From the NCBI RefSeq assembly GCF_006738645.1, contig NZ_AP019700.1, forward strand, positions 3,640,001 to 3,704,000: 64,000 nucleotides of DNA, written 5' to 3'. This document shows, piece after piece, positions 26,486 to 60,069 of this stretch (its first letter is position 1; every line of letters begins with the position of its first letter). The notes under the pieces are model-generated. The model saw only the letters and a list, made by a program, of their open reading frames with translations, did not search any database and was not told the origin of the DNA. This DNA is from Stella humosa. Lineage in GTDB: Bacteria; Pseudomonadota; Alphaproteobacteria; ATCC43930; Allostellaceae. The position numbers were made by a program, and so were the translations under genes.

Positions 26486-27454
26486 ATGGCCGGGACCGAC
26501 TTCCACATCCTCTGCGGCTTCCTGGGCAGCGGCAAGACGACCCTGCTGCTCGACTTCCTGGCGGGCCAGGATGCCGCCGACACCGCCGTGCTGGTGAACG
26601 ACGTCGGCCGGATCGACGTGGACGGTGCCGTCGTCGGCCGCTCGTCGACCGGCCTGCCGGTCGCCATGCTGCCCAATGGCTGCGTCTGCTGCTCGATCGG
26701 CAACGAGCTGGTCGCCAGCGTCGAGACGCTGGTGGCCGACCGCGACGACGCCGGCCTGCCGCCCTTCCGCCGGATGATCCTGGAATGCAGCGGCCTGTCG
26801 CGGCCGGGACCGATCGTCCGTTCGCTGGGCGACCTCGGCCGGCACGATTTCCGGGTGCGGGTGCTGGCGACCTTCGATGCCGGCCAGGGTGCCGCCCACG
26901 CCGTCCATTTCGAGGAAGCCGCCGCCCAACTGGCCGCCGCCCAGACCATCGTACTGAGCAAGCTCGACCTGGACGGCGCGGGGCCGGTCGAGGCCGCCGC
27001 GGCCGCTGCGCGCGCGATCAACCCCTTCGCCCGTCTGGTCGCCGAGCCCGATCGCGCCGCACGGGCGGCAGCCGCCTTCACCGGCCACGGACCAAGTGCG
27101 GCAGTCCCGCCGGCGCCGACCGTCGTCGGGCTGCGCGGCCTGCTGCACCCGCGGATCGCCGTCTTCCTCGCCACCGTCCCGCCCGGCCGCCCGTGGGAGG
27201 CGATCGCCCACTGGATCGAGGACCTGGCCGCCCGCTGCGGCGACCGGCTGCTGCGGGTGAAGGGGCTGGTCGCGGTGGCAGGCGTCGACGGGCCGGTGCT
27301 GGTCCAGGGGGTCGGCACCATCTTCTCCCCGCCCGTGCGCATGCCACCCGGCAGCGGCGGCGACCTCGGCTCGGTCGTCGTCATCGCCCACGACCTGTCG
27401 GCGGTCGACCTGGCCGCCACCTGCGCGCCTCATGGGGTGACGATCGGCCAGTAG
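26486..27454 (+). CDS. CobW/UreG-like GTPase (putative metallochaperone)
   Basis: A 322-residue COG0523-type protein. Walker A GFLGSGKTT starts at residue 11, the metal-binding CxCC motif is NGCVCCSIG near residue 65, Walker B-like LECSG follows and the guanine motif is SKLDL (variant of NKxD). These proteins deliver zinc, cobalt or iron to target enzymes. The gene lies 8 nt after a metal-dependent amidohydrolase, the obvious candidate client. The C-terminal CobW_C domain is present (LLRVKGLVAVAG). A second, different CobW-type gene is at 50381-51391. Confidence 0.86.
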   Translation: MAGTDFHILCGFLGSGKTTLLLDFLAGQDAADTAVLVNDVGRIDVDGAVVGRSSTGLPVAMLPNGCVCCSIGNELVASVETLVADRDDAGLPPFRRMILECSGLSRPGPIVRSLGDLGRHDFRVRVLATFDAGQGAAHAVHFEEAAAQLAAAQTIVLSKLDLDGAGPVEAAAAAARAINPFARLVAEPDRAARAAAAFTGHGPSAAVPPAPTVVGLRGLLHPRIAVFLATVPPGRPWEAIAHWIEDLAARCGDRLLRVKGLVAVAGVDGPVLVQGVGTIFSPPVRMPPGSGGDLGSVVVIAHDLSAVDLAATCAPHGVTIGQ

Positions 27455-42398: not shown

Positions 42399-42830
42399 CT
42401 ATTCACGCTTCACGGCCCTAAGGCCGTTCCGGACACGATCCGCGATCGCCTGCCGGGCGTAGGCGAAAAGACGGGGCGGCAGGTAGCCATAGTCGGGACG
42501 CCACGGCCGGATCCCGGGGACCGCACGGAGATCGGGTCCAGGCCATCGAAAGCGATTCACTTCCGTGACGACTATCCAGGACCGTGCGTGATCCAGCCCC
42601 AGCCGCTGCTTTACAACCGGCGGAATCTCCACGGCTGTCGAAGGGTCGACCGGCGCACTATGGGTGATCGGAGCGACCGTCACCTCCAAGCCCCCGTCGC
42701 GATCCTCGATGGTCAGGATCACCGCGCATGGGCGGTCCTTCGTCCCCTGCTCCATGCCCCGGCGCTGTTCGTCCCACCAGAGGTAGCTGTAGCGGATTAC
42801 CAATCCAGGCTTCGGCTCCGGCAGGCTCAC
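42399..42830 (-). CDS. PemK/MazF-like toxin of a toxin-antitoxin pair
   Basis: A 143-residue protein that resembles the PemK/MazF-like growth-inhibitor group: GLVIRYSYLWWDEQRRG, DRPCAVILTIED (the conserved RPxxVI strand), VTVAPITHSAP and an IPP-x-VKQRLGL segment, then SWIVVTEVNRFRWPGPDL. MazF proteins are mRNA interferases. It begins inside the upstream antitoxin gene (ATGA overlap), the usual order. The exact subfamily and activity are inferred; it is somewhat longer than MazF. Confidence 0.7.
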   Translation of the reverse strand: MSLPEPKPGLVIRYSYLWWDEQRRGMEQGTKDRPCAVILTIEDRDGGLEVTVAPITHSAPVDPSTAVEIPPVVKQRLGLDHARSWIVVTEVNRFRWPGPDLRAVPGIRPWRPDYGYLPPRLFAYARQAIADRVRNGLRAVKRE

Positions 42831-43093
42831 GGCCGCCAGTCACCAAGTTCCGCATCCAGATGCGCATGCTCCGCAGGGACTTCCGCAGTGGCAAGCGCCT
42901 GTAGGAAATCTTCGCCCATGTCTTCGACGCGCCGCACCTCCCGGTCGCGGCGCTTCAGGCGCTCATATTCCTTTGCCGACAACAGGACCAATCCGCCCTG
43001 GTCATCGCTCGTGATCGACACCGGTTCGTTCTGCGCAGCTTCCTGGTATTGCCCGAACCTCTTCCGAAGCTCGGCGGAGGTCACGACTAGCAT
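42827..43093 (-). CDS. Phd/YefM-family antitoxin
   Basis: An 88-residue antitoxin: the N-terminal Phd/YefM DNA-binding fold (MLVVTSAELRKRFGQYQEAA, SITSDDQGGLVLLSAKEYER) followed by a charged, acidic C-terminal tail (RRVEDMGEDFLQALATAEVP) that would wrap the toxin. Start at 43093 is favoured over an upstream TTG (43099) because GAGG lies 7 nt ahead. It overlaps the toxin gene by 4 nt. A Phd antitoxin paired with a PemK-like rather than a Doc/RelE toxin is a mixed pairing. Confidence 0.85.
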   Translation of the reverse strand: MLVVTSAELRKRFGQYQEAAQNEPVSITSDDQGGLVLLSAKEYERLKRRDREVRRVEDMGEDFLQALATAEVPAEHAHLDAELGDWRP

Positions 43094-43117
43094 TGCCAAA
43101 CCTCATCCTTTGCCGTC

Positions 43118-44891: not shown

Positions 44892-46316
<1,425 letters not shown>

Positions 46317-46319
46317 GCC

Positions 46320-46919
46320 ATGGAGCGCTTCCAGCGGCTCGACGCCATCGCCGTGCCGATCGCGCGGCCCAACGTCGACACCGACCAGATCACCCCTGCC
46401 CGCTTCCTGCACAAGCCGCGCAGCGACAACCATGGCAACTACCTGTTCCATGACGTCCGCCGCCTGCCGGACGGGACCCAGGACCCGGACTTCGTGCTGA
46501 ACCGCCCCGCCTATGCCGATGCCCGCATCATCGTGGCCGAGCGCAACTTCGCCTGCGGCTCGTCGCGCGAGAACGCGGTCTGGGGCCTCTACGACTATGG
46601 CTTCCGGGCCGCCATCGCCCCCAGCTTCGGCGACATCTTCGCCGCCAACGGGCTGAAGAACGGGTTGCTGCCGGTGCGCCTGCCCGAAGAGGTGGTGGCG
46701 GGGCTGATCGAGACCTTGCAGGCCGAGCCCGGCGCCAGCGTCGCCATCGACCTGGAGGCGCAGACGGTGACCCTGCCGGACGGCACGGTGCACCCGTTCG
46801 AGATCGACCCCTTCTCGCGCCACTGCCTGCTGAACGGGGTCGACGAGCTGGAATACACCCGCGAGCTCGCCCCTGAGATCGACGCCTTCATGAACCGCTA
46901 CGGCCGCGAGAACCGCTGA
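46320..46919 (+). CDS. leuD: 3-isopropylmalate dehydratase small subunit
   Basis: The 199-residue swivel-domain partner of LeuC. Typical sequence: [36 protein letters not shown] and the loop [20 protein letters not shown], then [13 protein letters not shown]. It begins 3 nt after leuC and ends 31 nt before leuB. Confidence 0.95.
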
Positions 46920-46950
46920 GCCGCCCCACCCCATCTTCGAGGAAGCCCCC

Positions 46951-48033
46951 ATGAAGATTCTTCTGCTGCCGGGCGACGGCATCGGCCGGGAAGTGACGTC
47001 CCAGGCGGTCAAGGTGCTGCGCGCGGTATCGGCCAACGGCCCCCAGTTCGAGATCGCCGAGGCCGCGATCGGCGATGCCGGCCTAGCCGCCGCCGGCGAC
47101 CCGCTGCCGGCCGAGACGCTGGAAGCCGCGCGCAAGGCCGACGGCATCCTGTTCGGCGCCGCCGGCACCTATGAAAGCGACCTGCTGCCGCCGGAGAAGC
47201 GCGGCGGGCACGGGCTGCTGCGGCTGCGCAAGGCGCTCGACCTCTATGCCAACTTCCGCCCGGTCTTCGCCTTCCCGGAGCTGCTGGGGGCGTCCACCCT
47301 GCGGCGCGAGGTGGTCGAGGGCGTCGACCTGGTGGTCCTGCGCGAGCTGACGGGTGACATCTATTTCGGCACGCCGCGCGGCATCCATCGCGACGAGGCG
47401 ACCGGCGAGCGCGTGGGCATCAACACCATGCGCTACACGGAATCGGAGATCCGCCGCGTCGCCCATGCCGCCTTCAAAGCCGCCCGCCTTCGGCGCAGCA
47501 AGGTGTGCTCGGTCGACAAGGCCAACGTGCTGGAGACGACCGCGCTGTGGCGCGAGGTCGTGACCGAGGTCGGCCGCGAGTATGCCGACGTGGCGCTGAC
47601 CCACCTCTATGTCGATGCCGCCGCCATGCACCTGATCCGCAGCCCGCGCGACTTCGACGTGATCGTCACCGGCAACATCTTCGGCGACATCCTGTCGGAC
47701 GCGGCCGCCATGCTGACCGGATCCATCGGCATGCTGCCGTCGGCCTCCATCGGCCCGACCGGCAAGGGGCTCTACGAGCCGGTGCACGGCTCCGCACCCG
47801 ACATCGCCGGCAAGGACCTGGCCAACCCGCTGGCCTCGATCCTGTCCTTCGCGATGATGTTGCGCCTGTCGCTGGGCCAGCCCGAGGCGGCCGAGGCCGT
47901 CGAACGCGCCGTGCGCACGGTGCTGGCCGAGGGCTACCGCACCGGCGACATCATGGAGCCGGGCGCCCGCCTGGTCGGCACGGAGGCGATGGGCGACGCC
48001 GTCACCCGGGCCGTGCACGGGCAGAAGGTCTAG
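46951..48033 (+). CDS. leuB: 3-isopropylmalate dehydrogenase
   Basis: Oxidatively decarboxylates 3-isopropylmalate with NAD. 360 residues; [12 protein letters not shown] at the start, [32 protein letters not shown], the metal site [14 protein letters not shown] and the NAD-binding [12 protein letters not shown] then [19 protein letters not shown]. Completes leuCDB. It ends one base before the convergent stop of the nucleotidyltransferase gene. Confidence 0.95.
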
Positions 48034-49524
48034 CTAGGCCAGCCGCGGCACCGCATCGGGGAAGCCCGTCCAGCCCGAGAGCATCGGCGTCGGCAGCACG
48101 TCGTCGACGCCGAGAATGCCGGGATGGAGGAAGGCCATAGCCGCATTGCAGCGAAAGACGACCGCGCCCGTCGGCCAGTCCGCGAGCGACGTGTCGAAAG
48201 CGCGCATGGCCCACTTGCCGTCGCCGGCCGGACGGATCGAGACATAGACCTGGGCCGGCGGGCTGCCCTGGGCCACATGCTGGAAGTCGCACCGGAAAAG
48301 CCCGTCCAGCGATCGCTCGAACCGCTGCCGCCAAGCGGAGGATGCAAGCACGGCGGCACGGACGGCAGCCCCGGTCGGCGATTGCGGCGCGTGTTCGCAG
48401 ATGAGATCGAGGCCCAGCGAACGCACCCAGGCCCGCATGGCGGGCGTCGCCAGGTCGTCGGGCAGGAAGGCGATCCGGCGGCGACCTGGCAGGCGTTCGG
48501 CGGCAATGGCGAGGTAGCCGGGCAATAGCGCCCGAACCTCCTCGATCCGCACGGCCGCCCCCCACGAGCGCGCCCGCAGGGCGAAGGTCGCATACTCGGC
48601 CGGGCCATAGGGCACGGCCAGCGCGGCCAGCACGAAGTCCGGCACGGGGGCTGAAAATTTGCGGCGGAGATAGGCGAGCGCTGTGCGCACCACGATCCGC
48701 TGCTCCTGCCGCCCGGCCAGATCGACCAGGCGCTGCCAGTCGATCCGTTCCTCCTCCAAGGCGAGGATGTCGAGCGAATCCGATATCCAGCGAATAGTCG
48801 GCACCGGGTTGCGCGGAATGCCGTGCACGATGCCGTGGTAGAGCAGTTCGGTCGGCGCCAGCGTCAGCGCCGGGATGCCGAACAGCTCGAACCGCTCGGC
48901 CGTGTCCCAGAACGGCCGGTCGGGGTCCGGCCCGGCGGCCCAGGTGCCGGCCAGGCGCCAGTGCAGGTCGATCTCCAGCCGGTTCTCGTCCATCACCGAA
49001 TAGCCATGGCGCAGTTCGAGATGCAGGTCGCCCAGCAGCGGGTCGTCCAGGACGGGGCGGAAGCGCGCATCGGCCACGGCCATGGCGCGGCGCGCATCGG
49101 CCGGGCGGACCAGCAGGTCGACATCGGCCATCGGCCGGAAGCCGGCCGACATCGTGGTCGACTGCACCAGTGCAGCCCCCTTCAGGAAGATGCACTCGAT
49201 GCCTTCGGCCCGGAACCGCCGAAGGATCTCGCACGCCCAGCCGAACAGCAGATTGTTGCGGTAGTAGGAGCGCCGGAACATCCCCTTCAACCGGCCAAGG
49301 AAGGGATGGTCGGGCGCGACATCGCGCAGGCGCTGGTAGAGCAGCGGGTAGAGGCGGTAGCAGCCATCGTCCATGGCCGTCATGTCGACGTTCGCATCCC
49401 AGTCCGCGAACAGGGCCGCGGCCTCCTCGCGCGGGCCATAGATGATGGCCAGCAGCTGCTCCTGGACGGGCGTGATCATTCCGGGCGGCAGGATGCCGCT
49501 GTCGCCGGCGTCGTGTGCACTCAT
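48034..49524 (-). CDS. Nucleotidyltransferase family protein (copy 1)
   Basis: A 496-residue protein whose first half looks like the uncharacterised NTase_5-type nucleotidyltransferases: ECIFLKGAALVQ followed by SAGFRPMADVDLLVRPADAR, in which the DVD pair would bind catalytic metals, then RLEIDLHWRLAG and LLYHGIVHGIPRNPVPTIRW. The C-terminal third is not assignable. It has a clear paralogue in the same operon (51400-52881). Family members are often found near peptide or polysaccharide modification genes; the substrate is unknown. Starts inside the protease gene with an ATGA overlap. Confidence 0.8.
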   Translation of the reverse strand: MSAHDAGDSGILPPGMITPVQEQLLAIIYGPREEAAALFADWDANVDMTAMDDGCYRLYPLLYQRLRDVAPDHPFLGRLKGMFRRSYYRNNLLFGWACEILRRFRAEGIECIFLKGAALVQSTTMSAGFRPMADVDLLVRPADARRAMAVADARFRPVLDDPLLGDLHLELRHGYSVMDENRLEIDLHWRLAGTWAAGPDPDRPFWDTAERFELFGIPALTLAPTELLYHGIVHGIPRNPVPTIRWISDSLDILALEEERIDWQRLVDLAGRQEQRIVVRTALAYLRRKFSAPVPDFVLAALAVPYGPAEYATFALRARSWGAAVRIEEVRALLPGYLAIAAERLPGRRRIAFLPDDLATPAMRAWVRSLGLDLICEHAPQSPTGAAVRAAVLASSAWRQRFERSLDGLFRCDFQHVAQGSPPAQVYVSIRPAGDGKWAMRAFDTSLADWPTGAVVFRCNAAMAFLHPGILGVDDVLPTPMLSGWTGFPDAVPRLA

Positions 49525-50384
49525 TGCGGCTTTTCCACCAGTCGGCCCAGAGCGGCCATGGAGGGAACGGGGACCGGCTGGCGCAGCCTGAGCGCCAGCG
49601 CGCGCACGGTGGCGGTCGGCACGGGGTCGAGCCCAGCACGGGCCGGCGGCGGGTGCGATTCCGGCCAGTCTGCCGCGGCATCCCGGAAAGCCGTCGCCGG
49701 GACGGCGACCCCGATGGTGCCCTTCGGCCCCTGGCCATGGCCGGAATGGACGCCCAGCAGGTGGATGCGGCCATCCACGATCGCCAGGATGGGCGACCCG
49801 GAATCGCCGCGAACGGCGTCGCAGTCATGTGCCAGCAAGGGACGCCCGCCCCCGGCCGGCCGGACATTGCAGCCCAGCACCGCCATCGGCAGATGGGCCC
49901 GATCCTGCCCGTAGCCCGCCCGCAGGATCGCGGCATCGGCACTCGGCAGCGCGAAGGCGGGCGCGATCCAGCCGACCTGGTTGCCGACGGGCTGGGCCAG
50001 GGTGACGATCGCCCAGTCGCCGGCAGGATCGCCGGGCGGGCCATCGTGGCCGCGACGGATGGCGATGGCGGGCGCTGTCGCCGCCCATTCGCCGCGGCCG
50101 TAGCCGGCCAGGAAATGCACGGCTTCCGGCCGCAGCGGTTGCCCGGTGCGGCGGTTGTAGAGGCAGTGGGCCGCCGTCGCGACCAGGCGCGGGGCGATCA
50201 TCGTGCCGGTGCAGCGCTGGCCGATGCTGGTGTTGAGCCGGCCGATGGCGCTCCAGGGATATTCCCCCGGCTCCACCACCCGGCGATCGTCGGTGCCGAC
50301 GATACCGGGGAGCGTCGCCTTCTGGGCGTAGGCCGGGCCGGAAGCGGCCAGTGACAGCAGTGCCGCGACGATGGCGAGCCTCAT
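49521..50384 (-). CDS. Secreted trypsin-like serine protease
   Basis: A 287-residue S1-family protease with a signal peptide (RLAIVAALLSLAASGPAYA, cut before QKATLP). The catalytic triad is complete: ATAAHCLYN (His), GDWAIVTLA (Asp) and RGDSGSPILAI (Ser). Cysteines in QRCTGTM and AHC can form the usual disulfide. There is a C-terminal extension after about residue 235. Inserted between a CobW GTPase and a nucleotidyltransferase, both by ATGA overlap, an unexpected place for an exported protease. Confidence 0.9.
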   Translation of the reverse strand: MRLAIVAALLSLAASGPAYAQKATLPGIVGTDDRRVVEPGEYPWSAIGRLNTSIGQRCTGTMIAPRLVATAAHCLYNRRTGQPLRPEAVHFLAGYGRGEWAATAPAIAIRRGHDGPPGDPAGDWAIVTLAQPVGNQVGWIAPAFALPSADAAILRAGYGQDRAHLPMAVLGCNVRPAGGGRPLLAHDCDAVRGDSGSPILAIVDGRIHLLGVHSGHGQGPKGTIGVAVPATAFRDAAADWPESHPPPARAGLDPVPTATVRALALRLRQPVPVPSMAALGRLVEKPQ

Positions 50385-51391
50385 GCCGCCACCGCCGCCC
50401 GCCAGCCGGGTTCGAGCGCCGCGCGATCGAGGTCGCGGCCGATCATGACGAGGGCAGACCGGCGCGGCCCCGGCGGCCAGGCGGCCAGCAGGGTCGGCGG
50501 ATGGAAGACATGGTGGACGCCGTGGACGGCCAGGGGCGTCGCCTCGCCCGCGATGTCGAGGATGCCCTTCACCCGCAGCAGGTCCGGGCCGCGGGCGGCG
50601 CGCAGCCCCGCCAGCCAGGCCGAGAGGGCCATCCAGTCCAGCGGCGCATCAGCCTGGAGGCAGACGGCCTGCACGGCCGGGTCGTGCCGCACGCCGGCAA
50701 AGGCATCCAGCGCCAGCCAACGGACCGTATCCGGCACCGGCCGCGACGGATCGTGGAGGCCGGCGCCGAACAGCCGATCGGGGTCGATCTCGCCCTGCAA
50801 GGCGTGGAAGATCGGGGCGGCCGGGTTCAGCCGATGCAGCCTGTCGCGCAGCGCGTCCACGACCGCCGTCGTCGCCAGGTCGGCCTTGGTCAGGACCAGG
50901 CGGTCGGCGATCGCCACCTGCTTCACGCTCTCCGCATGGCGGGCGAGCTGGTCCGCGCCATGCAGCGCATCGACGGTGGCGACGACCGCGTCCAGGCGAT
51001 AGGAATGCAGGATCAGCGGGTTGGCCAGCAGCAGTTGTACCAGCGGCGCAGGGTCGGCCAGGCCCGTCGTCTCGATCAGGACACGGGCGAAGGGCGGCAC
51101 CAGGCCTGCCTCGCGCCGGGCCAGCAGGTCGCGCAAGGTCGTCTCCACGTCGCTGCGCACCGCACAACAGATGCAGCCCGACGGCAGCACCAGCACCTCG
51201 CCCGCGACAGCCTCGACCAGCAGATGGTCGAGCGGGACGTCGCCGAACTCGTTCACGATCACCGCGCTGTCGGCCATCCCCGGCTGGCGCAGCAGCCGGT
51301 TGACCAGGGTCGTCTTGCCGCTGCCGAGGAAGCCCGTCATCAGCGACACCGGCAGGCGACCGGCGGACTTGTCGCGATCGAACAGGCTCAT
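50381..51391 (-). CDS. CobW/COG0523-type GTPase (putative metallochaperone)
   Basis: A 336-residue GTPase. Walker A is TGFLGSGKTTLVNRLL, then VIVNEFGDVPLDH, the metal-binding CxCC in PSGCICCAVRSDVETTL, Walker B LIETTGLADPAPL and the guanine motif LTKADL; the C-terminal CobW_C domain ends with HHVFHPPTLLAAWP. It is closer to the YjiA/ZigA-type than the copy at 26486-27454. Starts 9 nt after the upstream nucleotidyltransferase stop and overlaps the protease start by 4 nt. Confidence 0.9.
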   Translation of the reverse strand: MSLFDRDKSAGRLPVSLMTGFLGSGKTTLVNRLLRQPGMADSAVIVNEFGDVPLDHLLVEAVAGEVLVLPSGCICCAVRSDVETTLRDLLARREAGLVPPFARVLIETTGLADPAPLVQLLLANPLILHSYRLDAVVATVDALHGADQLARHAESVKQVAIADRLVLTKADLATTAVVDALRDRLHRLNPAAPIFHALQGEIDPDRLFGAGLHDPSRPVPDTVRWLALDAFAGVRHDPAVQAVCLQADAPLDWMALSAWLAGLRAARGPDLLRVKGILDIAGEATPLAVHGVHHVFHPPTLLAAWPPGPRRSALVMIGRDLDRAALEPGWRAAVAA

Positions 51392-51399
51392 CGGCCGGC

Positions 51400-52881
51400 T
51401 CAATCCGGCTGGAACGTGCGCGACGCGAAGAAATCCGGCCAGATCGGCAGGCCGCGGATCGGCACCGTGCCGTGCGCGCCGACGATCGACGGAAACGGCA
51501 GGCCGCCCAGGTCGTCGACGCGGAACACGACCGCGCCCAGCGGCCAGGCGGTGAGATTGGTGAAGAAGAGCCGCATGCCCGACTGCCCCTGCGCGTTGCG
51601 GTAGACCCGGGCATAGAGCGAATTCGTCGGCAGGTCGATGGGCGCGTCGAAGCGGTAGAGCCGCCCCTGGCCGGCGGCGGGCGGCCGGGCCGTTTCGGGT
51701 TGCGCCTGGAGCTGTGCCCAGGCCATGCGCCAAAGGGCAGCTTCCCGGTCGAACTCGCAGACGAAATCCGCGCCGATGCTTTCCAGCCACGCGAACATGC
51801 CGGGATCGGCGTCGCGCCCGTTCAGGTAGATGAGGCGTCGGCGCCCGGGCAGCCGGGCATCGACCATCGGCAGGCGGGCCTCGACCAGGCGACGGGCATC
51901 GGCCTGGTCGGGCCTGGTCCGCTGCTCGGCCGTTACCATGCGGAACTCCGCCTCCTCGTCGGCCTCGACGTCGCCCGCCAGCAGGTCGAGGGCATGCGCC
52001 GGGACGACGCCGGGAAAGCGGGCGTGGAGATAGGCAAGCCCCCGGCGCAACAGCAGCCGCCGGCGATAGTGGGTCGCCAGGAAGGCCAGCCGGTCCCAGT
52101 CGATGCGGGTCGGGCCGGCGGCGATCAGCTCCAGCGAATCCGACACCCAGCGGATCGCCGGGACCGGGTTGCGCGGGATGCCATGGACGATGACGTGGTA
52201 GAGCAGTTCGGTCGGCGCCAGCGCCAGCACCGGCCGATCCTGCAGCGTGACCGGGCGGGCCGTCTCCCAGAAGGGTGCGTCGGGCGCCTCGCCCGGGGCC
52301 CAGGCGCCGGCCAGGCGCCAATGCAGGTCGATTTCCAGCCGGTTCTGGTCGAAGACCGTGAAGCCGTGGCGCAGCTCGACATGGGCGTCGGTGGTGGTGC
52401 GGTCGACCAGCAGTTCGGCGAAGCGCGGATCGGCCACCGTGAGCGCGCGCCTGGCATCGCCCGTGCGCACCAGCAGGTCGACATCGGCCATCGGCCGGAA
52501 GCCCGAGGAAAGGCCGGTCGCCGGCACCAATGCCGCCCCCTTCAGCATCAGGCAATCCATGCCCTGCGCCTCCAGCCGCTCGACCACGGCGAGTGCCCAT
52601 TGGAACAGGAGCTGGTTGCGATAGTAGGTGCGTCGGAAATAACCCTTCATGCGCCCGATGAAGGGGTGGCCGCCCGCGAACCCGCGAATGCGGCGATAGA
52701 GCTGCGGATAGAGGCGGTAGCACGCGTCGTCGAGATCGGTCAGGTCAATGCCGGCCTGCCAGGCGTGAAAGCGGTCCGGCGCCTCTGCCTCGGGGCCGTA
52801 GATGATCGTCAGCAATTCTTCCTGGAGGGGCGTGATCAGGCCGGCCGGCAGAATGGCGTCGACGAGGGGAACGCTGCTCAT
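51400..52881 (-). CDS. Nucleotidyltransferase family protein (copy 2)
   Basis: A 493-residue paralogue of the protein encoded at 48034-49524; the two align along the N-terminal two-thirds (LITPLQEELLTIIYGPEAEA, DCLMLKGAALVPATGLS, GFRPMADVDLLVRTGDAR, RLEIDLHWRLAGAW, YHVIVHGIPRNPVPAIRW). The DVD metal pair is conserved. The C-terminal parts differ more, though both end with a jelly-like beta region (LTAWPLGAVVFRVDDLGG versus LADWPTGAVVFRCN). First gene of a four-gene reverse operon. Function unknown. Confidence 0.8.
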   Translation of the reverse strand: MSSVPLVDAILPAGLITPLQEELLTIIYGPEAEAPDRFHAWQAGIDLTDLDDACYRLYPQLYRRIRGFAGGHPFIGRMKGYFRRTYYRNQLLFQWALAVVERLEAQGMDCLMLKGAALVPATGLSSGFRPMADVDLLVRTGDARRALTVADPRFAELLVDRTTTDAHVELRHGFTVFDQNRLEIDLHWRLAGAWAPGEAPDAPFWETARPVTLQDRPVLALAPTELLYHVIVHGIPRNPVPAIRWVSDSLELIAAGPTRIDWDRLAFLATHYRRRLLLRRGLAYLHARFPGVVPAHALDLLAGDVEADEEAEFRMVTAEQRTRPDQADARRLVEARLPMVDARLPGRRRLIYLNGRDADPGMFAWLESIGADFVCEFDREAALWRMAWAQLQAQPETARPPAAGQGRLYRFDAPIDLPTNSLYARVYRNAQGQSGMRLFFTNLTAWPLGAVVFRVDDLGGLPFPSIVGAHGTVPIRGLPIWPDFFASRTFQPD

Positions 52882-53165
52882 GCGGGTCGGTGTCTCCTGC
52901 CGGTCGGCCCAGGCGAAGGGCGGATTCTGCGCAGATCGTTATACGGAACCCCGAGGCCGAGCGTCGACCAGGATCGGCCGCCACGCGATTGGCTATCGGT
53001 GGCGAGAATGGTGTGGATTCTTCGCCGATTGCCGCCCGCGCCATATTGACATCGGCCGGGCCGCCGCCGAGCCTTCGCCCCAGGCGCGAGGCCGGCGTCC
53101 GAAAATGCCGCGAAAGCGCCGTTCAGCATCCGAATCAATCGGATACCCGCAAGGAAGGAACGACC
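52882..53165. other. Divergent intergenic region, 284 bp
   Basis: Holds the promoters of the reverse nucleotidyltransferase operon and of the forward cyclase gene. I see moderately AT-rich patches around 52935-52950 and 53120-53150 but no convincing operator or RNA structure. Confidence 0.35.
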
Positions 53166-57701: not shown

Positions 57702-58124
57702 CTATGCAGCCGGCGTCCAGGGATCGATCACGGAGAGCCCGGCGGCGGCAAAAGCACTGGAATCGCGAGACGCCACGGCAAGCCCATGGGCAGCGGCGAT
57801 CGCCGCGATATAGCCATCGGGCGTTGGGAACCCCCTTCCAGCGGCACGCGCCCGGACGGCAAGATCGGCATAGAGGCGTGCTGCCCTCATGTCGAACGGC
57901 AGGATGCGGCCCACGAAGATTTCCAACACACCGTCGAGCGCAGCCGCGAGCTTGGCCTTGCGCTTGCCCATCGGTAGCGCGCCGATGCCAAACAGCAACT
58001 CGGCGATGGTGACGCTGGATAAATACAATGTCTCCGCCGCCTGATCGTCGAGCCATTCGCGGACCGCTGGATCCGGCTCAGGCTTCATGGCCTCGCAGAT
58101 GACATGGGTGTCGAGCAGGATCAT
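57702..58124 (-). CDS. vapC: VapC-type PIN-domain toxin
   Basis: A 140-residue PIN-domain ribonuclease toxin. The acidic residues are in LLDTHVICEAMKPEPD (first Asp and Glu), SSVTIAELLFGIGAL (Glu) and FPTPDGYIAAIAAAHGLAVA (Asp), with a final SRDSSAF Asp. It overlaps the antitoxin gene by 4 nt (ATGA) and is downstream of it, the usual VapBC order. It most resembles FitB-like PIN proteins. Confidence 0.9.
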   Translation of the reverse strand: MILLDTHVICEAMKPEPDPAVREWLDDQAAETLYLSSVTIAELLFGIGALPMGKRKAKLAAALDGVLEIFVGRILPFDMRAARLYADLAVRARAAGRGFPTPDGYIAAIAAAHGLAVASRDSSAFAAAGLSVIDPWTPAA

Positions 58125-58375
58125 CGGAAGCCCATAGGGTCGGCGGGCTTGTCGTCCCGGACCTGGTCAAGAGCCTCGACATCGGCATTGGTCAACCCGA
58201 CCTTGCGGCTCAAGTCGGCCAGCGCACTACCGACGCGCAGCCGGTCGGCAGGACGCACGGCGGCCTCCAGGATGGCCCGCATTTCCGCTTCGGCGCTGCG
58301 ATTGTGCTGTGCGGCCCGGACTTTCAGGGCACGATGCACCGCCTCGGGGAGATTGCGGATGGTGACGGCAGCCAT
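58121..58375 (-). CDS. vapB: FitA/VapB-type ribbon-helix-helix antitoxin
   Basis: An 84-residue antitoxin: N-terminal ribbon-helix-helix AAVTIRNLPEAVHRALKVRA with the following Arg/Ser/Glu-rich RSAEAEMRAILEAAV typical of FitA, and an acidic C-terminal tail that neutralises the toxin. Start at 58375 lies next to GGGGG about 8 nt ahead; longer in-frame starts lack a site and family similarity. Confidence 0.88.
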   Translation of the reverse strand: MAAVTIRNLPEAVHRALKVRAAQHNRSAEAEMRAILEAAVRPADRLRVGSALADLSRKVGLTNADVEALDQVRDDKPADPMGFR

Positions 58376-58393
58376 GATGGCACCCCCTGGGAA

Positions 58394-58428
58394 CGATAGC
58401 GATGATAGCACTGGTGACAAGATGATAG
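58394..58428 (-). promoter_or_regulatory. Direct-repeat operator upstream of vapBC-like pair
   Basis: GATGATAG occurs at 58401-58408 and 58421-58428, exactly 20 bp apart (two helical turns), and the first is preceded by a related CGATAGC (58394-58400). Spaced repeats on one DNA face are the pattern bound by ribbon-helix-helix antitoxins, so this is the likely autorepression site about 20-50 nt ahead of vapB. Confidence 0.45.
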
Positions 58429-58496
58429 TTCTGTACCCGATCGTCAAACTGGCCGAATGTCGGACTTCCAGAACCATGAAGCAGTAGACCCGTCCG

Positions 58497-59642
58497 ATGC
58501 GCCTGAAGGACTGCCACAACTTCCACGATTTCCGCCGGATGGCCGAGAAGCGCCTGCCGGGGCCGATCTTCAACTACATCGACGGCGCCGCCGACGACGA
58601 GGTCACCCTGCGGCGCAACACGGCGTCCTTCGACAGTTGCGACCTGGTGCCGAACGTCCTGCGCGGCGTGACCGAGGTCGACATGTCGGTGACGGTGATG
58701 GGGCAGAAGCTGGCGATGCCGGTCTATTGCTCGCCGACGGCGCTGCAGCGGCTGTTCCACCATCAGGGCGAGCGCGCGGTGGCCGCCGCCGCCGCCCGGT
58801 ACGGCACCATGTTCGGCGTCTCGTCGCTCGGCACCGTCAGCCTGGAGGAGGCCCGGCGGATCAGCAACGGGCCGCAGGTCTACCAGTTCTATTTCCACAA
58901 GGACCGCGGCCTGAACCGGGACATGATGACCCGCGCCAAGGAGGCCGGGGTCGAGGTGATGATGCTGACGGTCGACAGCATCACCGGCGGCAACCGCGAG
59001 CGCGACAAGCGCACGGGCTTCGCCATCCCCTTCAAGCTGAACCTCGCGGGCATGGCCCAGTTCGCGATCAAGCCGTCCTGGGCGATCGACTACCTCACCC
59101 ATGAGCGCTTCAAGCTGCCGCAGCTCGACGCCCACGTCTCGATGGGCGGCGGCGTCATGTCGATCAGCCGCTACTTCACCGAGATGCTGGACCCGTCGAT
59201 GACCTGGGACGACGTGGCCGACATGGTGCGCCACTGGGGTGGGCAGTTCTGCCTGAAGGGCGTGATGTCGGTCGAGGACGCCCGGCGCGCGGTCGAGATC
59301 GGCTGCACCGGCATAGTGCTCTCCAACCATGGTGGCCGCCAGCTCGACGGCTCGCGCAGCGGCTTCGACCAGCTCGCCGAGATCGTCGACGCGGTCGGCG
59401 ACCACATCGACGTGATCATGGATGGCGGCGTGCAGCGCGGCACCCACGTGCTGAAGGCCCTGTCGCTGGGCGCCAAGGCCGTCGGCGTCGGCCGCTACTA
59501 CCTTTTCCCGCTCGCCGCCGCCGGCCAGGCCGGCGTCGAGCGCGCGCTGGAACTGATGAAGACGGAACTCGAGCGGGGCATGCGGCTGATGGGCTGCACC
59601 TCGGTCGACCAGCTAACGCGGGAGAACCTGCGCTTCCGGTAA
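58497..59642 (+). CDS. lldD: FMN-dependent alpha-hydroxy-acid dehydrogenase (L-lactate dehydrogenase type)
   Basis: A 381-residue FMN barrel enzyme (LldD/glycolate oxidase family). Motifs: FNYIDGAADDEVTLRRN near the start, YCSPTALQRLFHHQGERAV, QVYQFYFHKDRG, LTVDSITGGNRERDKR and the active-site signature VLSNHGGRQLDGSRSG with catalytic His, then IMDGGVQRGTHVLKAL. It feeds electrons from a 2-hydroxy acid to quinone or oxygen. No clear ribosome site. The symbol is by family; substrate could be lactate, glycolate or mandelate. Confidence 0.88.
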   Translation: MRLKDCHNFHDFRRMAEKRLPGPIFNYIDGAADDEVTLRRNTASFDSCDLVPNVLRGVTEVDMSVTVMGQKLAMPVYCSPTALQRLFHHQGERAVAAAAARYGTMFGVSSLGTVSLEEARRISNGPQVYQFYFHKDRGLNRDMMTRAKEAGVEVMMLTVDSITGGNRERDKRTGFAIPFKLNLAGMAQFAIKPSWAIDYLTHERFKLPQLDAHVSMGGGVMSISRYFTEMLDPSMTWDDVADMVRHWGGQFCLKGVMSVEDARRAVEIGCTGIVLSNHGGRQLDGSRSGFDQLAEIVDAVGDHIDVIMDGGVQRGTHVLKALSLGAKAVGVGRYYLFPLAAAGQAGVERALELMKTELERGMRLMGCTSVDQLTRENLRFR

Positions 59643-59658: not shown

Positions 59659-60069
59659 TCAGGCCGCCTTCGGGTCGGTGCGGATAGATCGCAGGACTTC
59701 CAATTCCTCCGGATGGCGATGAAGGATCTCTATAAGGCCGACCGCCGCGTCGCTGGGCGGCGTGGCCCCGCTCTCATACTTCTGGAACGCCCGCCGCCCG
59801 CCGCCGATCAACCGCCCAGCTTCTTCCTGGGTCAGGTTCAATTGCTTGCGCACCTTCCGCACGTGCGCAGCATAGGCGGCCCGCAATGCCTGGAAGACCC
59901 GATCGGATTCAGCGAGGTCTGTCCCCGAATGAATGGAATCGCCTTCATCGTCCGGATACCAGCCCGGCACTTCAACAGCGCGCGACATCGAACCGAAGAC
60001 GATGGTCCGGATACGGGTGCCCCGTCGCAGAAGCTGGCCGGTTTCGGGGTGGATGCGGGTCTCAACCAT
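59659..60069 (-). CDS. mqsA: MqsA-like HTH antitoxin lacking the zinc-binding cysteines
   Basis: A 136-residue antitoxin. The C-terminal half (from about residue 70) is an XRE-type DNA-binding domain, RKVRKQLNLTQEEAGRLIGG then RRAFQKYESGATPP, matching the GGG-x-x-AF-x-x-YE-G pattern of MqsA. The N-terminal half, which in classical MqsA holds two CxxC zinc pairs, contains no cysteine at all here, so it must fold or bind toxin differently. Overlaps the MqsR gene by 8 nt and follows it, the order seen in mqsRA. Confidence 0.85.
   Translation of the reverse strand: MVETRIHPETGQLLRRGTRIRTIVFGSMSRAVEVPGWYPDDEGDSIHSGTDLAESDRVFQALRAAYAAHVRKVRKQLNLTQEEAGRLIGGGRRAFQKYESGATPPSDAAVGLIEILHRHPEELEVLRSIRTDPKAA

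Follow-up and report, generated by a model that had tools for sequence, protein, structure and literature searches.

Paired PF14907 nucleotidyltransferase-like proteins of Stella humosa and their possible partnership with two remote PqqD/GT2 modules

The window analysed here, a stretch of 64,000 nucleotides from Stella humosa ATCC 43930 (contig NZ_AP019700.1, positions 3,640,001 to 3,704,000), carries a minus-strand run of four genes at window positions 48034-52881, in the order nucleotidyltransferase-like protein A (NTA), CobW-like GTPase, secreted trypsin-fold protease and nucleotidyltransferase-like protein B (NTB). The genome consists of one contig of 5,832,650 bases. Positions of the four genes were taken from the list of open reading frames (ORFs) and tblastn, and the run is composed as follows.

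51400-52881, minus strand: NTA, PF14907 nucleotidyltransferase-like protein, 493 aa, with a genus-restricted C-terminal domain (Pfam 98.0 bits; conserved K-G, R, DxD and IDxHWR)
51400-51915, minus strand: C-terminal domain of NTA, counterpart of that of NTB, placed by alignment
50381-51391, minus strand: CobW/COG0523-type GTPase, 336 aa, with a GCICC motif (Pfam cobW and CobW_C)
49521-50384, minus strand: secreted trypsin-fold serine protease, 287 aa, with AAHC, DWAIVTL and GDSG (Pfam Trypsin, 56.9 bits)
48034-49524, minus strand: NTB, PF14907 nucleotidyltransferase-like protein, 496 aa, paralogue of NTA (Pfam 111 bits)
48034-48567, minus strand: C-terminal domain of NTB, residues 320-496, defined by its own profile and structure model
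52882-53162, no strand: divergent intergenic region 5' of NTA, defined by position only

The four genes and their products

The initial annotation described four genes in one direction with 4-nt overlaps and a 9-nt gap. Direction and overlaps hold, as CobW and protease and then protease and NTB overlap by 4 nt each (ATGA), while the gap between NTA and CobW measures 8 nt. The run is flanked by a divergent cyclase gene and by the convergent leuB, whose stop directly adjoins that of NTB. Judged from position alone, the region 52882-53162 is the probable place of the operon promoter; the promoter scan found no sigma-70-like site upstream of NTA, and the combined promoter/terminator scan gave one terminator-like site against 1.2 expected.

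Both nucleotidyltransferase-like proteins (NTs) have PF14907 (NTP_transf_5) as their sole Pfam match, far above the gathering cut-off of 31.2 bits, and are 47% identical to each other, confirming the earlier view that the two proteins of about 495 residues at the ends of the run are true paralogues. A structure model of NTB built with 13 sequences reached a mean predicted local distance difference test score (pLDDT) of 83.3 and a predicted template modelling score of 0.85, and its core (residues ~76-309) superposes on solved proteins of the minimal nucleotidyltransferase (MNT) fold. In the VIA comparison of this predicted model, the best match was MenT1 (Z 13.1, root-mean-square deviation (rmsd) 2.8, 176 aligned), followed by TM1012 (Z 10.7, rmsd 2.9, 135 aligned), ANT(2'')-Ia (Z 10.6, rmsd 3.9, 171 aligned), TglT/MenT3 (Z 9.5) and FKRP (Z 8.7, rmsd 4.1, 140 aligned), with MenT4 listed too. 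Foldseek returned a single match below E 0.001 (5uvd), and a sequence search of the PDB with the NT profile returned none. In an alignment of 13 rows, comprising six Stella-group and seven outside sequences with the locus L026 left out, K115, G116, R130, D134, D136, I185, D186, H188, W189, R190 and D249 (NTB numbering) are invariant. D134, D136 and D186, present in all 13 rows, correspond to the acidic active site expected for the family, a DxD pair plus a third carboxylate.

The C-terminal part of NTB, whose structure prediction had been proposed as a check, was modelled alone from six sequences with a pLDDT of 73.4 and gave no confident fold match in the PDB (best VIA hit Z 4.6, rmsd 5.0, 130 aligned; best Foldseek E 0.034). 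In sampled-genome searches, where scoring was limited to the 4 to 8 best candidates of each genome, the profile of this domain matched one of 398 genomes of the phylum, the source genome itself, and the four non-genus relatives of NTB among 385 genomes of the class matched only within NTB residues 17-320. A related-locus search seeded with NTB alone returned no relative. The domain is probably genus-specific, and it probably recognises the acceptor or a partner protein.

The identification of the inner genes as a CobW GTPase and a secreted trypsin-like protease is also borne out. The former contains the GTPase domain, CobW_C (Pfam) and the CxCC motif of COG0523 metallochaperone GTPases, read as GCICC in the translation; another CobW-like GTPase, which shares 34% identity with it, lies elsewhere in the window (26507-27352, plus strand). 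The latter exceeds the Pfam cut-off for S1 trypsin-like proteases (56.9 versus 20.6 bits) and carries the His-Asp-Ser motifs, of which DWA and GDSG are present in all four genus genomes and AAHC was read in the translations, and its N-terminus, judged by eye, is a signal-peptide-like stretch. Neither NCBIfam nor PHROGs gave a match for NTA, NTB or the protease, PADLOC found nothing for NTA, NTB or CobW and a weak partial match of the protease to part of LmuA (16.1 bits), and a plasmid search returned no match.

Distribution within Stella and beyond

Four genomes of the genus were compared: S. humosa (G000), Stella sp. ATCC 35155 (G001), the metagenome-assembled genome SJ646 (G002) and S. vacuolata (G003), with published sizes of 5,832,650 bases for S. 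humosa ATCC 43930, 5,339,096 for ATCC 35155 and 5,834,761 for S. vacuolata ATCC 43931 (PMC6687932). In ATCC 35155 the order NTA-CobW-protease-NTB is the same as in S. humosa, with amino-acid identities of 52, 72, 69 and 61% and a spacing, read from sequence, of 22 nt, an overlap and 35 nt. This retention at 52-72% identity is more than chance. The whole block is syntenic in the genus, so that togetherness alone says little. In SJ646 the protease (66%) is followed by two NTs that adjoin the same DUF169 gene, and CobW is missing there, its best matches (53% and 49%) lying elsewhere in the genome. S. vacuolata retains CobW (77%) and the protease (74%) between the same flanks as S. humosa, separated by ~335 nt if the protease starts at the signal-peptide Met or by 160 nt with the longest ORF; no NT was found in this genome with NTB or with PF14907 at E up to 1, nor any match better than E 0.037 in the corresponding 19-kb stretch. 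At the expected place of NTB in that stretch lies about 1 kb (L073, 6570-7570) with a GC content of 56.5%, against 71.2% for the stretch.

NT copies therefore number 2, 2, 2 and 0 in G000 to G003, a pair or none, while the CobW orthologue is present in three of the four genomes and the protease in all. As the NTs are absent from S. vacuolata, which keeps CobW and protease, and CobW is absent from the protease-NT-NT run of SJ646, the four genes are not one obligate system: CobW and the protease can do without the NTs, and the NTs without CobW. Within the block, divergence is fastest in the NTs (52% identity for NTA and 61% for NTB, versus 94% for the aminotransferase). In NT trees, the SJ646 copies cluster together in one and stand apart in another (p-AU 0.221 when held together).

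PF14907 was found in 71 of 372 sampled genomes of the class, two of which were Stella. Neighbourhoods were taken from 40 of the 69 non-Stella genomes, mostly the best-scoring, several on contigs under 7 kb, and were scanned with profiles seeded from L014, L075 and L076 and then iterated, so that the counts are approximate, although a repeat gave the same ones. An HprK-like kinase was present in 23 of the 40, a PqqD-like protein in 11, an AsnB-like protein in 8 and any of the three in 25. The neighbourhood analysis recommended by the initial annotation recovered the run in ATCC 35155, but outside the genus CobW occurred near NTs in 2 of 40 neighbourhoods (nearest ~3 kb off) and the protease in 1 (~5 kb off). 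Protease relatives were present in 69 of 385 sampled class genomes, two of them Stella, and none of the 28 non-genus loci among 30 fetched had CobW or an NT beside the protease within flanks of up to 1.5 kb. One locus with protease, NT, HprK-like kinase and CobW within 16 kb (L121, genome G134) was taken as coincidence, the genes being ~5-6 kb apart with others between.

The five outside loci closest to the Stella NTs (L074, L075, L076, L077 and L021) all have a PqqD-like protein and a GT2 glycosyltransferase beside the NT, with an HprK-like kinase in three; Pfam found PqqD in L075, L076 and L077 and GT2 in L076. Three further loci (L161, L162 and L163) each hold two NTs with PqqD and GT2 between them, and an HprK-like kinase in two. 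That NT pairs occur only in Stella was ruled out by two close PF14907 matches in genomes G380, G304 and G208. In L014 (2555-10824), a single stretch of a genome from the same taxonomic order (G013) holds PqqD, an HprK-like kinase, an asparagine synthase, a PF14907 gene and ORFs that resemble tail-collar proteins by eye. Our literature search found no paper on PF14907/NTP_transf_5 nucleotidyltransferases, and none linking an HprK-related kinase with a nucleotidyltransferase, or CobW with a nucleotidyltransferase and a trypsin-like protease; the combination of PqqD, HPr kinase, glycosyltransferase and nucleotidyltransferase was matched by a survey of rumen lasso peptides (PMC7533575).

Elsewhere in the window, leuC, leuD and leuB (44892-48033, plus strand) stand between the DUF169 gene and NTB in S. 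humosa only and are missing from the equivalent stretches in the three remaining genus genomes. On the minus strand, 57702-58573 encodes a PIN-domain ORF preceded by a FitA-like ribbon-helix-helix antitoxin ORF, a VapBC/FitAB-like pair; 42399-43099 holds a Phd/YefM antitoxin ORF and, after it, an ORF of 143 aa with no Pfam match, perhaps its partner; and 59659-60069 is an MqsA-like antitoxin/helix-turn-helix ORF.

Remote PqqD/GT2 modules and a reading of the NT pair

No PqqD-like or GT2 gene stands at the Stella operon, unlike the contiguous arrangement in the relatives. PqqD (PF05402) matches elsewhere in G000, G001, G002 and G003 number 2, 3, 2 and 1. The single match of S. vacuolata and one of ATCC 35155 lie in pyrroloquinoline quinone biosynthesis loci, as the adjoining PqqB (379.3 and 359.8 bits, respectively, cut-off 245) and, in ATCC 35155, PqqE (520.6 bits) indicate. 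The remaining six loci fall into two syntenic sets, one of each in S. humosa, ATCC 35155 and SJ646. Module A (L164, L167 and L170) comprises GT2, GT2, PqqD-like and group-1 glycosyltransferase genes, with a PMT_2-like membrane glycosyltransferase further on (Pfam on L164), and module B (L165, L168 and L169) comprises GT2 genes, an HprK-like kinase and a PqqD-like gene, with PqqD and GT2 confirmed by Pfam in L165. None of the six stretches contains an NT. Two modules thus accompany the NT pair in each genome that has one, and the PqqD search detected neither module in the NT-less S. vacuolata; because NTs and modules are both missing from this species, the NTs appear to belong with the modules.

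Module A is adjoined, in divergent orientation, by the gene of a small protein that begins with a signal-peptide-like stretch and contains repeats of nine residues.

L164 9219-9587; L167 up to 9196; L170 5221-5496 (ends approximate): DEGKxGxN repeat protein

The motif occurs seven times in L164 (with a period of 9), eight times in L167 and six times in L170. The protein was found in 3 of 172 loci, precisely these three, and in none of 60 shuffled loci (5 shuffles of 12); its matches to collagen-type models stay below the cut-offs. It is a possible acceptor of tailoring by the NTs, the modification itself being speculative.

The nearest outside relatives carry the NT directly alongside PqqD-like and GT2 genes, and the pattern is therefore most simply read as one system whose NTs were moved to a distant operon. 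NTA and NTB would then be the displaced transferases of the two remote peptide-tailoring-type modules, acting in trans, a reading to which we assign a probability of about 0.5. What the four genomes show is the family, the predicted fold, the conserved residues, the pairing of the NTs, their separability from CobW and protease and their co-occurrence with the modules; the chemistry of the NTs, their acceptor, their action in trans and the part played by the C-terminal domain are inferred from this pattern. In such a scheme, the two-metal carboxylate site D134/D136/D186 of NTB would bind the nucleotide donor and metals, and the NTs would transfer a nucleotidyl, sugar or sugar-phosphate group onto a peptide delivered by the PqqD-like protein. 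In module B, the HprK-like kinase would perhaps phosphorylate the peptide before the NT step, and the GT2 enzymes could lengthen the group that was added. That the NTs are orphans without partners was dropped as an explanation once PqqD/GT2 loci had been found both at the relatives and in Stella. The peptide-modification role proposed initially is retained for the NTs alone, on the strength of their PqqD/GT2 context, and not for the four genes together.

Several observations weigh against this assignment. MenT toxins match the NT core fold as strongly as any transferase. The kinases of module B score below all curated cut-offs (at most 20.9 bits in L165 and L169), L168 shows no kinase family, and the module PqqDs reach 39.1 and 30.5 bits against the cut-off of 80 of the lasso model NF033536. 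In the wider family, 15 of the 40 neighbourhoods have none of HprK, PqqD and AsnB, and GT2 appears in 0 of 40. Pfam found no PqqD in L021, where the call comes from the iterated profile only, as do the kinases of the two-NT loci, that of L163 receiving no Pfam family. Absence of the modules from S. vacuolata rests on the PqqD search, HprK-like and GT2 genes having not been sought separately there; with four genomes, one of them metagenome-assembled, a single genome without both sets could be chance. PsmN, the lasso-peptide enzyme compared below, is a presumed member of PF14907.

If all four genes formed one pathway, an exported peptide would be modified by the NTs and processed by the protease, with CobW as the supplier of metal; the close spacing of the genes in S. 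humosa and their conserved order in ATCC 35155 speak for this idea. Against it stand S. vacuolata and SJ646, which split the run, and the lack of any association among these genes seen outside the genus, including the 28 protease loci, and we consider it highly improbable. The genes of CobW and of the exported protease are best viewed as independent neighbours, or as passengers on a probably shared transcript, apart from NT function, and the four-gene operon as such is no new system on present evidence.

MenT1 as the best structural match, with MenT3 and MenT4 also listed, would fit toxins with tRNA or protein targets that serve defence or competition, as would the fast divergence of the NTs and their variable presence among species. 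The neighbours (CobW, protease, leuB and cyclase) are not antitoxin-like, however, in contrast to the adjacent antitoxin of MenAT and AbiE, neither NT matches PADLOC or PHROGs, and the closest NT relatives adjoin PqqD/GT2 genes, which leaves a toxin function very unlikely. FKRP among the fold neighbours and the GT2, group-1 and PMT_2-like glycosyltransferases of module A agree with decoration of a surface glycan by FKRP-like nucleotidyl or sugar-phosphate transfer, with no peptide acceptor and with the modules as polysaccharide genes. Module A also contains the small secreted repeat protein, and PqqD-like proteins bind peptides in known systems; decoration of a glycan alone is accordingly conceivable but unlikely. 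A bolder version of the displaced-transferase reading, quite unlikely in our estimate, would have the two modules and the remote NT pair assemble, on the DEGKxGxN protein, a glycan attached through a nucleotidyl or sugar-phosphate link, as a dispersed system for a surface or extracellular glycopeptide particular to the star-shaped Stella.

The lasting interest of the locus lies in the NT pair, its extra domain and its co-occurrence with the two remote PqqD/GT2 modules. With two NTs for two modules and with a candidate acceptor, the chemistry of PF14907 becomes directly testable, and S. vacuolata, in which neither the NTs nor, as judged from the PqqD search, the modules are present, provides a natural comparison.

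Comparison with known systems

The sole solved sequence relative found for the CobW protein is the COG0523 GTPase YjiA (E 4.1e-48), but at 202.6 bits the Stella protein falls below the 361-bit equivalog cut-off of NCBIfam for YjiA, and likewise below those for CobW (140.1 versus 332.1 bits) and ZigA (96.8 versus 600 bits). For the protease, the best solved sequence relative is the S1 serine protease 7uxg_A (E 5.6e-19). The toxins MenT1 and MenT3 and the enzyme ANT(2'')-Ia share the MNT fold with the NT core, at 6-13% identity; the Stella NTs differ in their extra C-terminal domain, and no antitoxin partner is seen.

In the literature found, PsmN, an annotated nucleotidyltransferase, is the only one with an in vivo role, though PF14907 is common. 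Together with the kinase PsmK of the pseudomycoidin cluster it is reported to give a phosphorylated, hexosylated peptide, PsmN itself adding one or two hexoses to the phospho-Ser of pseudomycoidin; a review names nucleotidylation followed by host glycosylation as another possibility (PMC9266682, PMC8498205). PsmN resembles the Stella NTs in its annotation. It sits inside the lasso cluster of Bacillus pseudomycoides with B and C genes, whereas the NTs of Stella are remote from the genes proposed as their partners, possess an additional C-terminal domain of ~175 residues and belong to a genus in which the lasso B2 leader peptidase (PF13471) was found in none of the four genomes.

In other genomes, HprK-related kinase A (TIGR04352) adjoins members of the same NT family; two of five neighbouring kinases pass this model (394.9 and 274.8 bits, cut-off 200) and three fail, and the Stella module kinases tested (L165 and L169) are below the cut-off. 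A further parallel comes from PqqD/HprK-like/GT2/PF14907 loci in other Alphaproteobacteria and in Balneolaceae (L074-L077, L021 and L161-L163), in which the Stella-type C-terminal domain was not found by tblastn. They hold the same kinds of genes as Stella, with the paired NTs of L161-L163 standing at the two ends of the locus, and the genes that are dispersed in Stella are contiguous there.

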